Of a stretch of 64,000 nucleotides of DNA, positions 3-32,967 are shown piece by piece. Each line of letters starts with the position of its first letter. The stretch's first letter is position 1. The DNA is from an uncultured Aequorivita sp. Its GTDB lineage: Bacteria > Bacteroidota > Bacteroidia > Flavobacteriales > Flavobacteriaceae. Where the stretch lies: assembly GCA_937125455.1 (NCBI GenBank), contig CAKZLK010000016.1, positions 124,001 to 188,000 on the forward strand. Direction: 5' to 3'. The notes beneath the pieces are model-generated. The model ran no database searches, was not told where the DNA came from, and saw nothing but the letters and a program-made list of their open reading frames with translations. Both the position numbers and the translations under genes were made by a program.

Positions 3-1139
3 CATCCTAATAAACTATTTTTTGCATACGCAAATACTGTTGCAACCATAGATTTTGCAAAGCAATATAAAGGTCACGGCTGGGTTGGTATACGCTATCA
101 AGTAGATCCAAAGGAACCTTACAACGAAATAGCTCTTCACGTTCGCTTTCACGAAAATGACGCACAATTACAGCAAATTACACTTGGAATACTTGGTGTA
201 AACCTAATTTATGGAGCTTACTATAAATACGACCAACCAAAAAAATTGCTTCGTTATTTGTACGACCATATTGATAAAGACAAGATTGAAATAGATACCA
301 TTAACTTTTCTGGTCCACGTTTTAAAGATGTGGACAATCGTTTAATGAGCCTCCAGTTAATCAAAAATGGAATGACCGATGCGGTTATGTTTGGCCCTGA
401 TGGTCATAACATTCTTCCCGCAAGAATTCTTTACAAGAAAAACATACTCGCTCTTCGCGGAAGCTTTAGGCCCGTAACTAAGGTTAACATTGATATGTTT
501 GAACGCTCCTACAAAATGTTTCTCGATGAAAATAGGGTAGAAAAAGAACGCACCGAGGTTATTTTTGAAATAACACTTTCAAACCTTCGTTCAGAAGGTG
601 AAATTGATGAGGAAGATTTTATGGACCGTGCAAGGCTGCTATGTTCGCTCGGCCACACTGTAATGATTTCGAATTTTCAGGAATATTACAAATTAGTTGA
701 ATATTTCTCCCGCTATACCAAAATGCGTATGGGACTTGCTATGGGCGTTAACAATTTAGTGGATATTTTTGACGAGAAGTATTATCGCCATTTGAGTGGA
801 GGGATTTTGGAAGCCTTTGGAAAACTATTTTTTAAAGACTTGAAAGTATATCTCTACCCAATGAAAGATCCAGAAACTGGAGGGTATACAAACAGTGAAA
901 ACTTGAAAGTACACCCGCGAATGAAAGAATTGTACAAATTCTTCAAATACAACGGAAAAGTTGTTGATATAACAGATTACAATCCAGAAATTCTTGATAT
1001 ATTCTCTAGAGAGGTACTCGCAAAAATAGAAAATGGCGAAGAAGGCTGGGAAGAAATGTTACCTGCGGGTGTTTCCGAAATAATTAAAGAAAAACACCTA
1101 TTCAATTGCAAAGGAAAAACTGAAAAAATTAGTGATTAA
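3..1139 (+). CDS. Conserved cytosolic Bacteroidota protein, 5'-truncated by window edge
   Basis: The reading frame is open from base 3 without a stop, so the gene begins upstream of the window; the first in-frame TTG at 246 is not a convincing start, because the residues before it (HPNKLFFAYANTV..., from base 3) read as ordinary protein. The visible 378 residues carry no signal peptide or membrane segment and are rich in charged residues and short hydrophobic helices. I recognise it as a conserved family of unknown function in this phylum. Related entries have, to my memory, sometimes been given the name TonB-dependent receptor, which nothing in this sequence supports. It ends convergently with bcp, the two stop codons overlapping. 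Function unknown. Confidence 0.7.
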   Translation, partial: HPNKLFFAYANTVATIDFAKQYKGHGWVGIRYQVDPKEPYNEIALHVRFHENDAQLQQITLGILGVNLIYGAYYKYDQPKKLLRYLYDHIDKDKIEIDTINFSGPRFKDVDNRLMSLQLIKNGMTDAVMFGPDGHNILPARILYKKNILALRGSFRPVTKVNIDMFERSYKMFLDENRVEKERTEVIFEITLSNLRSEGEIDEEDFMDRARLLCSLGHTVMISNFQEYYKLVEYFSRYTKMRMGLAMGVNNLVDIFDEKYYRHLSGGILEAFGKLFFKDLKVYLYPMKDPETGGYTNSENLKVHPRMKELYKFFKYNGKVVDITDYNPEILDIFSREVLAKIENGEEGWEEMLPAGVSEIIKEKHLFNCKGKTEKISD

Positions 1140-1591
1140 TTCATCAATATTTGAGCTGCGTGGTCTTTTGTTTTAACCTTATCAATCACGCGCTCAATTA
1201 TTCCATCTTTGTCAATAATAAAAGTTTTCCTGTGAATTCCATCATACTCCTTTCCCATAAACTTTTTTGGTCCCCAAACTCCAAAAGCATTGATTACTTC
1301 TCTATTTTCGTCTGCTAATAAAGGGAAAGGGAAGCTATATTTTTCTTTAAAGTTTTTTTGGCGTTTTTCATTGTCAGCACTCACACCCAACAATTCATAA
1401 CCTTCATTTTGAAGTTCTTTATAATTATCGCGAAGATTGCAGGCTTCAGCTGTACAACCTGGTGTATTGGCTTTTGGATAGAAAAAAACAATCCATTTTT
1501 TTCCTTCAAAATCTTTTGAGGAAATACTGTTTCCGTCTTGATCGTTCACTTTAAAATCTGGGGCTTTATCGCCTACCGTTAATGTTTTCAT
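1136..1591 (-). CDS. bcp: Thioredoxin-dependent thiol peroxidase (Bcp/PrxQ peroxiredoxin)
   Basis: This is a 151-residue cytosolic peroxiredoxin that reduces hydrogen peroxide and organic hydroperoxides using thioredoxin. The AhpC/TSA fold is complete: the N-terminal GDKAPDF motif, then the active-site segment NTPGCTAEACNLRD with the peroxidatic Cys46 and, five residues on, Cys51 as the probable resolving cysteine of an atypical 2-Cys (PrxQ) enzyme. The start was placed at the ATG ending at 1591, because the extra 14 residues available upstream look non-coding and the family normally begins MKTLxxGDKAPDF. It is divergent from nth (30 bases apart) and its stop overlaps that of the gene at 3-1139. 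Confidence 0.93.
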   Translation of the reverse strand: MKTLTVGDKAPDFKVNDQDGNSISSKDFEGKKWIVFFYPKANTPGCTAEACNLRDNYKELQNEGYELLGVSADNEKRQKNFKEKYSFPFPLLADENREVINAFGVWGPKKFMGKEYDGIHRKTFIIDKDGIIERVIDKVKTKDHAAQILMN

Positions 1592-1621: not shown

Positions 1622-2275
1622 ATGACCAAGCAAGAAAAGGTAAACTTTGTTATTGATACGTTAAATAAGATTTATCCACAAGTCCCAATACCATTAGAAC
1701 ATAAAGACCCATATACACTATTGATTGCCGTTCTGCTTTCTGCCCAAAGTACTGATGTCCGGGTAAACCAGATCACACCACTTCTATTTGAGATAGCAGA
1801 CAACCCTTACGATATGGTAAAACTTACTGTGGAAGAAATAAGGGATATAATAAAACCAGTTGGCCTTTCGCCTATGAAATCTAAAGGAATACACGGCCTT
1901 TCAAAAATTTTAATAGAGAAGTACAACGGTAAGGTGCCCGCAGATTTTAAAGCATTGGAATCGTTTCCAGCCGTCGGTCACAAAACAGCAAGTGTTGTGA
2001 TGAGCCAGGCTTTTAACATTCCAGCATTTCCAGTTGATACACATATCCATAGATTGATGTACAGATGGGGATTTACAAATGGTAAAAATGTTGTTCAAAC
2101 CGAAAAAGATGCAAAACGTTTGTTCCCCAAAGATTTGTGGAACAAGCTTCATCTCCAAATAATATGGTATGGAAGGCAATATTCTCCAGCCCGAGGATGG
2201 GATTTGGAAAAAGATATAATCACAAACACAATTGGCAGAAAAAGTATTATCAATGCGTATTTAGCAAAAAAATAA
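1622..2275 (+). CDS. nth: Endonuclease III-type DNA glycosylase/AP lyase lacking the Fe-S cluster
   Basis: This 217-residue base-excision repair enzyme removes oxidised pyrimidines and nicks abasic sites. The helix-hairpin-helix is seen at residues 113-125 (LESFPAVGHKTA) with catalytic Lys121, and the catalytic Asp139 sits in VDTHIHRL. The fold from LLIAVLLSAQSTD to the C-terminus matches bacterial Nth. What is odd is that the protein contains no cysteine at all. The usual C-terminal C-x6-C-x2-C-x5-C loop that holds a [4Fe-4S] cluster is replaced by a segment around WYGRQYSPARGWDLEKD. The catalytic pair is intact, so an active clusterless enzyme is more likely than a pseudogene. It starts 17 bases after a TATTTTTG box. 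Confidence 0.92.
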   Translation: MTKQEKVNFVIDTLNKIYPQVPIPLEHKDPYTLLIAVLLSAQSTDVRVNQITPLLFEIADNPYDMVKLTVEEIRDIIKPVGLSPMKSKGIHGLSKILIEKYNGKVPADFKALESFPAVGHKTASVVMSQAFNIPAFPVDTHIHRLMYRWGFTNGKNVVQTEKDAKRLFPKDLWNKLHLQIIWYGRQYSPARGWDLEKDIITNTIGRKSIINAYLAKK

Positions 2276-2313
2276 AAAGCTTGTAACTTAGTTCTCTGAA
2301 GTTTTTTGGAATA

Positions 2314-2346
2314 AAAAACCCCGAAAAGCTAATTCCGGGGTTTTTC
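2314..2346. terminator. Bidirectional intrinsic terminator between nth and the small ORF
   Basis: A ten-base perfect stem (2314-2323 with 2336-2345, AAAAACCCCG / CGGGGTTTTT) has T runs on both strands and sits between two convergent genes. Confidence 0.85.
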
Positions 2347-2352
2347 CAAAGT

Positions 2353-2505
2353 TTAGTTTAGAAGTGCTTCAAACTTCATTTTATGGTAATCTATAACACT
2401 TAAAGCCATCGAATAATCCAGAAGAAATTTAATGGTTTCTTCTTTTGGAACAAGTTTTTTATTCACGTCGTCCAACCGTGATGTTTCAGTGTAAAATTTT
2501 TGCAT
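2353..2505 (-). CDS. Small conserved protein, 50 residues, downstream of the sigma factor
   Basis: The ORF runs ATG (2505) to TAA (2353) and encodes a 50-residue soluble protein beginning MQKFYTETSRLDDVNKKLVP and ending KMKFEALLN. It is predicted largely helical, with no cysteine, signal peptide or membrane segment. It follows the sigma gene on the same strand after 56 bases and is closed by the bidirectional terminator at 2314-2346. I recognise near-identical small ORFs at this place in other flavobacteria, which argues it is real. The sequence pattern (polar N-terminus, then KEETIKFLLDYSMAL) could be a small binding partner, but no function is known to me. Confidence 0.75.
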   Translation of the reverse strand: MQKFYTETSRLDDVNKKLVPKEETIKFLLDYSMALSVIDYHKMKFEALLN

Positions 2506-2561
2506 AGAGCGTTATTTTGAGGTTTATTTTCAAATAACGCAGCAAAATTTAGTTTATTGTA

Positions 2562-3146
2562 TTAATTGGTTAATATAATATTGTGTTTATCAATTACTTT
2601 ACGCAAATTAATAAGTGCATAACGCATCCGTCCCAAAGCAGTATTGATACTGACACCAGTTTGCTCACTTATTTCTTTAAAACTCATATCTTTATAAATC
2701 CGCATCATCAGTACCTCTTTTTGGTCCTCAGGCAGTTCTTGTATCAATCTTCGCACGTCTTCTTCAACCTGTCCTTTAATGATTTGTTTCTCTACATTCA
2801 GAGCATTATCACTCAATACAGAAAAAATGTTGAAATCATTATTATTTTCAAACTTCGGCATACGATTGTTCTTTCTGAAATGGTCTATAACCAAATTGTG
2901 GGCAATACGCATAACCCAAGGAAGAAATTTGCCCTCCTCGTTATATGCACCTCTTTTAAGGGTTTTAATGACCTTAATAAAGGTGTCCTGAAAAACGTCT
3001 TCAGCAACGTCTCGGTCAAAAACTTTTGAATAAATAAAACTGTAGATTCTTTGCTTGTGTCGAGTTATTAACTCGCTAAGTGCAGATTCATTACCGTTCA
3101 TATAAGCGTTTACTAAAAACGCATCAGTGCTAGTGCTTTGCTTCAT
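2562..3146 (-). CDS. RNA polymerase sigma-70 family factor (ECF-type)
   Basis: This 194-residue protein has the two-domain layout of group 4 sigma factors. Region 2 (about residues 20-95) contains DVAEDVFQDTFIKVIKTL and the -10 recognition stretch FLPWVMRIAHNLVIDHFRK; region 4 (about 125-185) contains LPEDQKEVLMMRIYKDMSFKEISEQTGVSINTALGRMRYAL with its helix-turn-helix. No anti-sigma gene is next to it, unlike the two other sigma genes of this window. Instead a 50-residue conserved ORF follows. It is divergent from uvrA across a 255-base gap. The regulon cannot be read from the sequence. Confidence 0.9.
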   Translation of the reverse strand: MKQSTSTDAFLVNAYMNGNESALSELITRHKQRIYSFIYSKVFDRDVAEDVFQDTFIKVIKTLKRGAYNEEGKFLPWVMRIAHNLVIDHFRKNNRMPKFENNNDFNIFSVLSDNALNVEKQIIKGQVEEDVRRLIQELPEDQKEVLMMRIYKDMSFKEISEQTGVSINTALGRMRYALINLRKVIDKHNIILTN

Positions 3147-3364
3147 ATCAGTACTTTTTTAAAAAATAAACAACTATGGATTTGGTTGCTTAGTTACAAT
3201 GTTTATTTGTTAAAAGTAGTGATCAGCTATAGGCAATATTTTTTTTATATGACGTTAAGAGCCGTAAATATAACAACAAAGAATTCACAAATGCAAAAAA
3301 AAGGTTAAATTTTTATATAAAAAATAATAATATCCTCAAAGGTGCATTGCTTAAACCGATATAG

Positions 3365-3401: not shown

Positions 3402-6179
3402 TTGACTAAGAAAACATTAGACATCAAAAAAAATATCCTGATTCAGGGTGCAAAACTTCATAATCTTAAAGATATTTCGGTTGCGATTCCAAGAAATAAG
3501 TTAGTTGTAATTACGGGCCTATCGGGCAGTGGAAAATCCAGCTTGGCGTTTGACACTCTTTATGCAGAAGGACAAAGACGCTACGTAGAAAGCCTTTCCA
3601 GCTATGCACGCCAGTTTTTGGGAAGATTGGACAAACCGAAGGTTGATTCTATTAAGGGGATTTCTCCTGCTATTGCCATAGAACAAAAGGTAAATTCAAC
3701 AAATCCCCGCTCAACTATTGGTACTTCGACTGAAATTTATGATTATTTAAAATTGCTCTACACCCGAATCGGAAAAACAATTTCTCCAATTTCTGGGAAA
3801 GAAGTAAAAAAAGACACGACTACAGATGTTATAAATTTTATAAAAAACTTTTCAGAGGGCGAAAAGTTGCTCCTCCTTGCCCCTATCCATTTAGAAGAGG
3901 GCCGAACAATGGAAAACAAAGTTCAAGCATTGGCTCAGCAAGGCTATTCCAGAATAAAAATTAAAAATGAAGTTTTACGAATTGATGAACTAGAAGGAAA
4001 ATCTTTCCCAAAAAAAATAGATTTGGTCATTGACCGCGTGATTACAAAAGATGAAGAAGATTTTTACAATCGCCTTGCCGATGCCATTGAAATAGCTTTT
4101 TTTGAAGGAAAAGGTGAACTGTACATTGAGGAACTTTCTTCTAAGAAAAAAACTGAATTCAACAATCGTTTTGAAGCGGACGGAATGGTTTTCATGGAAC
4201 CAAATGTCCATCTTTTTAGTTTTAATAATCCATACGGTGCGTGCCCAACCTGTGAAGGTTATGGTGATGTGATTGGCATAGATGAAGATTTAGTTATACC
4301 GAACACGGCACTTTCTATCTTTGAAAATGCAATATTTCCTTGGCGTGGCGAAAGTATGAGTTGGTATCGCGATCAATTGGTCAATAATGCCTATAAGTTT
4401 GATTTCCCCATCCATAAACCTTGGTTTCAATTGACTGATGAACAAAAACAGCTGGTATGGGATGGCAATAAATATTTTGAAGGACTAAATTCTTTCTTTT
4501 CTTTTTTGGAATCGAAAAGCTATAAAATTCAAAACCGAGTGATGCTTTCACGCTATCGCGGAAAAACAAAATGTACAAGCTGTAAAGGAAAGCGACTTCG
4601 GCCCGAAGCTAGTTATGTTAAAATAAATGGAACAGCTATTCAAGAATTAGTAGAACTTCCGCTTGATAAAACCGCTGAATTCTTTAAAAATCTTAAACTT
4701 TCAGAATTTGAGGAAAAAGTTGCAAAACGTTTACTGATCGAAATCAATAATCGACTTCGATTTTTACGGGATGTCGGTTTGAGTTATTTAACCCTGAACC
4801 GAAAATCTAACACGCTATCTGGCGGAGAATCACAGCGTATAAATCTTGCTACTTCTTTAGGAAGTAGCCTTGTAGGCTCTATGTATATTTTGGACGAACC
4901 AAGCATTGGCCTTCACCCAAAAGATACCGAAAGACTTATCGTTGTTTTGAAATCACTTCGTGATCTGGGCAACACAGTTATTGTTGTGGAACACGATGAA
5001 GACATCATGAAAGCCGCCGACGAAATCATAGATATCGGCCCAGAAGCGGGAACTTTTGGTGGCGAAGTGGTTGCGCAAGGAACATATGCTGAAATTTTAA
5101 AATCAGATTCGCTCACTGCAAAGTATTTAAATGGCGAAATGGAGATTGAAGTTCCCAAAAAGCGTCGAACTTCAAAAAATAAAGTCACTATTTCAGGCGC
5201 GCGACAAAACAATCTTAAAAATATAGATGTTACTTTTCCCTTAAACGTTTTTACAGCAGTAACGGGAGTTTCTGGTAGTGGTAAAAGTACCTTGGTAAAA
5301 AAAATACTTTATCCTGCCCTACTTCGCGAAATAGGAGGTTATGGAGAAAAACCAGGGCAATTTTCAGAAATAAAAGGAGATTTTGGAACCATCAAAAGCA
5401 TAGAATTTATTGATCAAAACCCCATCGGTCGATCAAGCCGAAGTAACCCTGTAACGTATATTAAAGCATATGACGATATTCGGAATTTGTATGCTTCACA
5501 AAAGCTTTCGGACATACGCGGTTTTAAAGCGAAGCATTTTTCTTTTAACGTAGATGGCGGTCGTTGCGAAACCTGCAAAGGCGAAGGCGAAGTAACCATC
5601 GAAATGCAGTTTATGGCTGATGTCCATTTGCTTTGTGATACCTGCAATGGCAAACGGTTCAAAAAAGAAGTTTTGGAAGTGACTTTCCAAGGTAAGAACA
5701 TAGACGATATTCTGACGATGACGGTTGATGATGCAGTAGCCTTTTTCGGGGAACATAAACAGGATAAAATTGCCGCAAAATTACAACCCTTGCAGGATGT
5801 GGGATTGGGTTATGTCCAGCTTGGGCAAAGCTCCTCTACCCTTTCCGGCGGAGAGGCACAACGTATCAAACTTGCTTCGTTTTTAGTAAAAGGAACCTCG
5901 AAAGAAAAAACGGTTTTCATATTTGACGAACCCACAACGGGGCTTCACTTTCACGATATCAAAAAGTTGCTTGCTTCTTTTTATGCATTGCTCGAAAGAG
6001 GACACACGGTGATTGTGGTTGAGCACAATTTAGATTTAATTAAATGCGCAGATTACGTTATTGATCTTGGACCCGAAGGTGGTGAAAATGGAGGGCTAGT
6101 GGTTGCAGCGGGTACTCCAGAAGAAGTGATAAAAAATAAAGAGTCATATACCGCTGCCTATTTAAAGGAGAAAATTTAA
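3402..6179 (+). CDS. uvrA: Excinuclease ABC subunit A
   Basis: This is the damage-sensing ATPase of nucleotide excision repair: UvrA dimers find DNA lesions and load UvrB. The 925 residues contain two ABC modules. Module 1 has a Walker A around residues 39-47 (GLSGSGKSS), ABC signature near 472 (LSGGESQR) and Walker B near 496 (ILDEPS). Module 2 has a Walker A near 621 (GVSGSGKST), signature near 813 (LSGGEAQR) and Walker B near 839 (IFDEPTTG). Zinc ligands are visible as Cys281/284 with Cys391/394, and Cys722/725 with Cys745/748. The start is a TTG at 3402: the ATG at 3377 is out of frame and stops after seven codons, and the N-terminus KNILIQGAKLHNLKDISV aligns with normal UvrA starts. Confidence 0.96.
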   Translation: MTKKTLDIKKNILIQGAKLHNLKDISVAIPRNKLVVITGLSGSGKSSLAFDTLYAEGQRRYVESLSSYARQFLGRLDKPKVDSIKGISPAIAIEQKVNSTNPRSTIGTSTEIYDYLKLLYTRIGKTISPISGKEVKKDTTTDVINFIKNFSEGEKLLLLAPIHLEEGRTMENKVQALAQQGYSRIKIKNEVLRIDELEGKSFPKKIDLVIDRVITKDEEDFYNRLADAIEIAFFEGKGELYIEELSSKKKTEFNNRFEADGMVFMEPNVHLFSFNNPYGACPTCEGYGDVIGIDEDLVIPNTALSIFENAIFPWRGESMSWYRDQLVNNAYKFDFPIHKPWFQLTDEQKQLVWDGNKYFEGLNSFFSFLESKSYKIQNRVMLSRYRGKTKCTSCKGKRLRPEASYVKINGTAIQELVELPLDKTAEFFKNLKLSEFEEKVAKRLLIEINNRLRFLRDVGLSYLTLNRKSNTLSGGESQRINLATSLGSSLVGSMYILDEPSIGLHPKDTERLIVVLKSLRDLGNTVIVVEHDEDIMKAADEIIDIGPEAGTFGGEVVAQGTYAEILKSDSLTAKYLNGEMEIEVPKKRRTSKNKVTISGARQNNLKNIDVTFPLNVFTAVTGVSGSGKSTLVKKILYPALLREIGGYGEKPGQFSEIKGDFGTIKSIEFIDQNPIGRSSRSNPVTYIKAYDDIRNLYASQKLSDIRGFKAKHFSFNVDGGRCETCKGEGEVTIEMQFMADVHLLCDTCNGKRFKKEVLEVTFQGKNIDDILTMTVDDAVAFFGEHKQDKIAAKLQPLQDVGLGYVQLGQSSSTLSGGEAQRIKLASFLVKGTSKEKTVFIFDEPTTGLHFHDIKKLLASFYALLERGHTVIVVEHNLDLIKCADYVIDLGPEGGENGGLVVAAGTPEEVIKNKESYTAAYLKEKI

Positions 6180-32695: not shown

Positions 32696-32737
32696 AATTC
32701 AACCTTTATCCCGAAAGTTTGATGATTTTATGTTACG

Positions 32738-32892
32738 AATTCGGCAGGTCTCCTGGCTTGTCTTTTGTGCCACCTTCCCATCCCGATAGCTATCAAGACA
32801 GTGGTTTTTGAAGCATGCACGTCCGAAAATGACTTCGAAACGACTTACAGTTGCGGGAACAGCTTCGGTTTTTAACCGAATTCCCTTTTAAG
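32738..32892 (-). promoter_or_regulatory. Cobalamin riboswitch
   Basis: Read on the minus strand, the leader contains AGGGAATTCGGTT (from 32890), then CCCGCAACTGTAAGTCG (from 32857), CCACTG (from 32804), GGGAAGGTGGCAC and finally AAGCCAGGAGACCTGCC (ending at 32744), the B12-box core of the Cbl riboswitch. The order and spacing match this RNA class. It lies 43 bases ahead of the BtuB-like receptor gene and would shut off the receptor and lipoprotein when adenosyl- or methylcobalamin is plentiful. Confidence 0.93.
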
Positions 32893-32934
32893 AGCTTTTT
32901 TCCGTAATAGAAATCAGCTCACCAAAATTCCTTA

Positions 32935-32967
32935 CAAAAATAGACTTTAAATACTAGTTAACCCAAA
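32935..32967 (-). promoter_or_regulatory. Promoter of the riboswitch-btuB transcript
   Basis: On the minus strand TTTG (32967-32964) and TATTTTTG (32942-32935) are spaced 21 bases; transcription would start about 40 bases before the riboswitch aptamer. Confidence 0.65.

Follow-up and report, generated by a model that had tools for sequence, protein, structure and literature searches.

The closest described counterparts of the locus treated here are the class I anti-σ factors (ASDI; RseA, RskA, ChrR, and RsiW type), which are encoded next to an ECF σ and are defined by helices 1 to 3 plus helix 4. Passages of PMC7406223 describe helix 4 of these domains as sitting on a flexible linker and binding regions 2.1/2.2 of σ2, the same regions that the β′ clamp binds, and helix 1 as binding σ4. 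According to the same passages, just 6% of Bacteroidetes ECF σs are associated with a class I anti-σ domain, and the RpoE-like ECF03 σs of Bacteroidetes have no conserved anti-σ in their genomic context. As worded in those passages, these statements leave the control of such Bacteroidetes ECF σs open.

We analyzed a window (the whole 64,000-nt stretch of DNA, from an uncultured Aequorivita sp.) in which a small gene likewise lies directly behind an ECF σ gene. The conserved helix of its 50-aa product corresponds to helix 4, the σ2-binding helix, through two steps of profile comparison, and the relatives of the protein at the same locus are anti-σ-like. Unlike class I anti-σ factors, the 44- to 50-aa form lacks helices 1 to 3, the zinc motif, and the membrane segment, and a separate promoter-like element lies between the two genes.

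Two other Bacteroidota systems were compared by description. EcfO-Reo of Bacteroides/Phocaeicola has in common with our locus an ECF σ and a cognate regulator, but Reo spans the cytoplasm to the cell surface, as stated in a section of PMC13114119, whereas the protein described here is soluble and 50 aa long. SigP (PGN_0274) of Porphyromonas gingivalis, which is linked to PorXY, is also a Bacteroidota ECF σ; it has one homolog in F. johnsoniae according to a section of PMC10951265, and the motif proposed for it in a section of PMC4800418 differs from the CAATA-N15-CGTT element found here. Neither "anti-sigma" nor "orphan" appears as a term in the main text of PMC8265659. In the literature that we searched, we saw no account of a 50-aa partner for the σ at our locus. 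Enterobacteria express σE-dependent small RNAs, namely, MicA, RybB, and MicL. The small gene resembles these in having a short predicted transcript unit, a putative ECF-type promoter, a terminator, and possibly an RNA function; it differs in that it is protein coding and in that σ dependence and RNA function are putative.

The small gene and its σ neighbor

The features of the locus, in window coordinates, are as follows.

2353..2505, minus strand: small gene, 50 aa, ATG start (from comparative conservation and coding signature)
2562..3146, minus strand: ECF σ factor gene, 194 aa, PRK12513-like but below that model's cut-off (Pfam)
3402..6179, plus strand: uvrA, divergent neighbor (context)
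1622..2275, plus strand: nth, endonuclease III, convergent neighbor (context)
1136..1591, minus strand: bcp-type peroxiredoxin gene (context)
2535..2559, minus strand: candidate promoter of ECF type for the small gene, CAATA-N15-CGTTA (−35, 2555-2559; −10, 2535-2539)
about 2312-2350, minus strand: intrinsic terminator hairpin closing the unit
2362..2401, minus strand: nucleotide-frozen segment within the small ORF, possible hairpin (arms, 2388-2401 and 2362-2375)

The σ gene product matches Pfam Sigma70_r2 (E = 1.1e−15) and r4_2 (E = 1.7e−12) and thus has the σ2 and σ4 regions within a short protein (194 aa) that mark an ECF σ; its PDB relatives at E ≤ 1e−5 are bacterial and mostly ECF-type σs. 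The small ORF follows on the same strand after a gap of 56 nt. Ahead of the σ start, a TTGCCTATAGC...TACTTTT block (about 3212-3236, minus strand) is kept over 69 aligned sequences including the window, which suggests a leader element of the σ mRNA. Elsewhere in the window, we noted a cobalamin riboswitch at 32726-32942 (minus strand; 93.4 bits).

An earlier note on this DNA had pointed to a conserved 50-residue ORF, and comparison across genomes indicates that it is a genuine protein gene. It was present in all 28 same-genus genomes searched and, by profile search, in 223 of 249 family genomes (E ≤ 0.1), 95 of 196 order genomes (E ≤ 0.01), and 40 of 296 genomes at the phylum level (E ≤ 0.01); the phylum-level matches outside the order number four and are borderline (E = 0.004 to 0.008). 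The nearest named relatives among the matches listed are from Aequorivita. Pfam and NCBIfam contain no family that matches the ORF at E ≤ 1. All 81 sequences compared have ATG as codon 1, and codons 18 to 27 vary synonymously while the protein stays nearly unchanged: in this 81-sequence set, position 20 uses all four Pro codons and position 24 uses all four Thr codons. Relatives differ in length by whole codons. These properties make it very improbable that the ORF is spurious and that the conservation belongs to an RNA or DNA element alone; part of the ORF is indeed strongly conserved at the nucleotide level, as such a reading would have it, but the protein pattern outlasts DNA divergence in other lineages.

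The protein consists of an N-terminal MQK.Y segment, a linker, one helix (PKEETIKFLLDYSMALSV...), and a conserved tail, KFEALLN. AlphaFold2 predicts a single helix at residues 22 to 49, with pLDDT values of 94 for residues 21 to 30, 87 for residues 31 to 40, and 72 for residues 41 to 50. As the earlier note had supposed, the protein appears to be soluble: no membrane-like stretch occurs in the 25 plus 27 family members examined.

The pairing with the σ gene, for which the same note had proposed a synteny survey, holds in near, named, and divergent loci alike. In near loci, the small ORF begins ∼60 nt past the last sense codon of σ (30 of 30), and σ immediately precedes it in 80 of 80 named loci, these being the best 80 of at least 488 relatives. 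Among divergent loci, for which the first in-frame ATG behind σ served as the start codon, the two genes adjoin in 61 of 66 distinct cases (71 loci minus the duplicates L164, L181, L197, L206, and L213). At L074, L079, L098, and L129, the wider neighborhood has changed and the pair is retained. Exceptions are few: homologs of the small protein at L192 and L196 have no σ gene nearby, that at L216 lies 1.9 kb away from σ, and at L198 and L199 the ORF starts >200 nt behind σ. Adjacency to an ECF σ, a feature of class I anti-σ factors, is thus a property of the small gene, and the neighboring σ is presumably the cognate σ of its product. The suggestion that the ORF encodes a small regulator or partner of the σ factor therefore stands well supported by synteny as far as partnership is concerned (30/30, 80/80 of the best listed, and 61/66); binding and inhibition are putative.

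Thirty-four genomes without a small-protein match were also inspected, 20 drawn from the 26 misses in the family and 14 from the 101 misses in the order. The σ is still carried by 22 of them, 16 of which have a short ORF of 41 to 90 aa at the same place, though not every one has the motif; behind the σ of the other six (L319, L326, L328, L330, L331, and L332), no short ORF was found. Inspection by eye of family f18 (7 genomes) revealed no ORF of the small-protein family. At four loci in different genomes (L148 in G430, L150 in G209, L157 in G081, and L178 in G028), two ORFs of the small family flank σ, one on either side.

A promoter-like element and a terminator

A CGT-type −10 is typical of ECF promoters, and the intergenic CAATA-N15-CGTT element resembles such a promoter. 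CAATA and CGTT occur in all 80 named loci (again the best 80 of at least 488 relatives), with a spacer of 15 in 79 and 16 in one; in these loci, 26 to 38 nt separate the end of CGTT from the start of the ORF, and the bases within the spacer vary. In intervals from divergent loci, CGTT is present in 61 of 61, compared to 13% of shuffles; it lies 9 to 38 nt ahead of the first ATG, with 53 of 61 at 22 to 42. CAATA-N14-16-CGTT is found in 30 of these 61 intervals versus 0.04% in shuffles. The survey that yielded the 74- to 87-aa proteins described below showed no strict motif in its 27 loci. We infer that the neighboring σ reads the element.

We considered a wider σ regulon defined by CAATA-N15-CGTTA, but the genome contains seven matches versus nine in a reversed control; therefore, the motif shows no regulon enrichment. 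Besides that at the small-gene locus, two matches in the own genome precede a gene without falling inside an ORF. The gene behind one of them, L167, occurs in 1 of 30 searched genomes, namely, its own. The second, L170 (G000:C24:7043-7067), precedes a 133-aa ORF. A similar motif facing uvrA (3234-3257, plus strand), with a spacer of 14, was rejected as not conserved by eye.

At the other end of the unit, the strong terminator claimed earlier was borne out: the hairpin has a z of −5.4 compared to shuffles, and all six of its stem pairs carry double-sided compensatory changes across an alignment of 42 loci. The hairpin folds on the plus strand too, behind nth (z = −3.5). A simple consensus terminator scan listed none in the region.

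Longer proteins at the same place and a proposed role of the 50-aa protein

The earlier note had taken the σ to lack an anti-σ neighbor. This premise is probably wrong because a longer, anti-σ-like protein occupies the same place in other lineages, and the ORF itself seems to be a remnant of one. The σ was found in 28 of a selection of 30 genomes, most of them distant, in 54 of 59 genomes of another order (that of G527), and in 60 of 60 genomes of another class of the phylum. In the other order, a soluble protein of 74 to 87 aa is encoded behind σ in 22 of 26 loci (L263, L268, L269, and L271 lack it), and its gene overlaps the σ gene by 14 to 44 nt. In the other class, an anti-σ-like protein of 181 to 238 aa lies behind σ in 28 of 30 loci (all but L280 and L301), with an overlap of 4 to 59 nt; these proteins have a probable membrane segment, judged by eye and with a hydropathy of 1.5 in the one computed.

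Three alignments were compared as profiles: A5, a hand-picked set of 27 members of the 44- to 50-aa family; A4, 23 long soluble proteins (19 of the 22 overlapping ones, without L261, L266, and L272, plus 4 others); and A6, residues 1 to 82 of 15 outgroup proteins chosen from the 28 of 181 to 238 aa. A5 matched A4 via the C-terminal helix (probability 96.6, E = 6.2e−10), and A4 matched A6 over the whole domain (probability 98.3, E = 1.2e−14). The homology is stepwise: direct comparison of the 44- to 50-aa family with A6 was not significant (E = 0.033, probability 1.5), although the register was identical. The NCBIfam model "anti-sigma factor" matched 13 of 15 A6 members at E ≤ 0.1 (best, 2.4e−8), and the matches whose scores are shown, 31 and 39 bits, fall under the curated cut-off of 100. 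Matches of the long soluble forms to anti-σ models were weak (2 of 23 members; best E = 0.00088); Pfam gave no anti-σ family match for this form, and searching PDB by sequence gave no solved anti-σ structure for it. The same PDB search with the outgroup proteins yielded nothing useful (RskA at E = 0.92). Within our own order, the 88-aa proteins of L219 and L273 combine an anti-σ-like N terminus with an ILN or VLN tail that resembles the tail of the 50-aa form.

The 50-aa protein aligns with the C-terminal part alone of the long soluble form, and it looks like the counterpart of the C-terminal helix of the anti-σ-like domain. Since it lacks helices 1 to 3, it does not have the defining feature of class I anti-σ factors, helices 1 to 3 plus helix 4; the claim made here therefore concerns where the protein comes from and how it is likely to act and does not extend to class I membership. 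The simplest history suggested by the alignments is that the middle of the domain was lost, while the start and helix 4 were retained.

With moderate confidence, we favor the view that the ORF encodes a minimal, helix-4-only anti-σ, reduced from a class I-like domain, that exerts negative feedback on its σ. The ancestor would have been a class I-like anti-σ domain encoded behind a Bacteroidota ECF σ; loss of helices 1 to 3 would have left the σ2-binding helix 4 and a short tail. In our own order, the small gene has ceased to overlap the σ gene, and an ECF-type promoter-like element lies between the σ stop and the start of the small gene. Free σ would transcribe the small gene into a short transcript ended by the terminator, and the helix of the peptide would bind σ regions 2.1/2.2, the site of the β′ clamp, so that the core-blocking contact is retained and σ is switched off. 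AlphaFold2 modeling of σ and the small protein as a read-through chain showed no docking (pTM 0.38, with a shallow alignment), and the small part of the chain had pLDDT values of 26 to 44; for this reason, binding of the peptide to σ, like the ensuing inhibition, is put forward by inference only. The absence of helix 1, the σ4-binding part of known complexes, also counts against an anti-σ reading. That absence, along with that of the rest of helices 1 to 3, could instead mean an altered role, such that the conserved σ-associated protein is an activator, a stabilizer, or a link to another regulator. A section of PMC10951265 reports an interaction between the response regulator PorX and the ECF σ SigP of P. 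gingivalis, which means that σs of this phylum can have nonclassical partners. Such a noninhibitory role, which we regard as unlikely, has against it the position of the protein and its C-terminal homology to anti-σ-like proteins.

If the minimal anti-σ is real, it would show the minimum of an anti-σ factor that suffices. A widely conserved Bacteroidota ECF σ appears to be partnered from within its own locus, in a graded series that runs from a long anti-σ-like protein to a single helix. Shortness and divergence make the partner easy to miss, and it may explain how a supposedly partnerless σ is restrained.

Frozen codons and a possible RNA layer

The small ORF is unusually poor in synonymous change. 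Over 20 near sequences, its pS is 0.194, while the lowest 50-codon windows of the neighboring genes have values of 0.54 (σ), 0.71 (nth), 0.61 (bcp), and 0.63 (uvrA); over 81 sequences, the values are 0.372 versus 0.72 to 0.77 in the lowest neighbor windows. The freeze is focal, covering codons 28 to 39 and 43 to 50 in the near set and mainly codons 34 to 39 and 43 to 48 in the wide set, and includes codons that are rare in the four neighboring genes (TCG, CTG, and CTA make up 11%, 8%, and 6%, respectively, of the codons for their amino acids). The two arms of the frozen segment are invariant, and the loop between them is variable; none of the 13 internal-stem pairs shows a double-sided change. 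By eye, the frozen sequence is missing from most of the same-family loci printed, being present in L139 and L140; it is therefore confined to part of the family. In its own genome, the frozen 18-mer has no second exact copy, and the closest other site differs by 2 mismatches. Rfam gave sub-threshold matches and nothing at the gathering score at the locus (window and 16 loci).

The frozen synonymous sites hint at an embedded RNA element, and a dual coding and RNA role for the small gene is possible. At the sequence level, the conserved promoter-like element and terminator would delimit a discrete transcript, as expected of a small RNA. One could go further and regard the ∼230-nt transcript as mainly a regulatory RNA, like the σE-dependent small RNAs, the ORF then being either a carrier or a secondary function. 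The low pS, the focal freeze that takes in rare codons while codons 18 to 27 vary, the invariant pairing arms around a variable loop, and the unit's own promoter-like element and terminator would all fit this idea. We consider it improbable: the 13 internal pairs lack double-sided changes, there is no Rfam family at the gathering score, the frozen sequence is missing in most same-family loci where the protein persists, and the protein pattern is taxonomically wider than the frozen stretch. It is likewise doubtful that the locus is a dual-function feedback gene in which a σ-made transcript from a dedicated promoter yields both a helix-4-only anti-σ microprotein and a codon-embedded RNA, as the final stage of a reduction across the phylum that led from a long anti-σ protein to one helix.

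Directly past the stop of the small ORF lies a further element, ACAGCCC...GTCGGATGTTT, for which Rfam has no match; it is conserved in the same-family loci L149, L154, L156, and L158 and likewise in L159, L160, L162, and L163.
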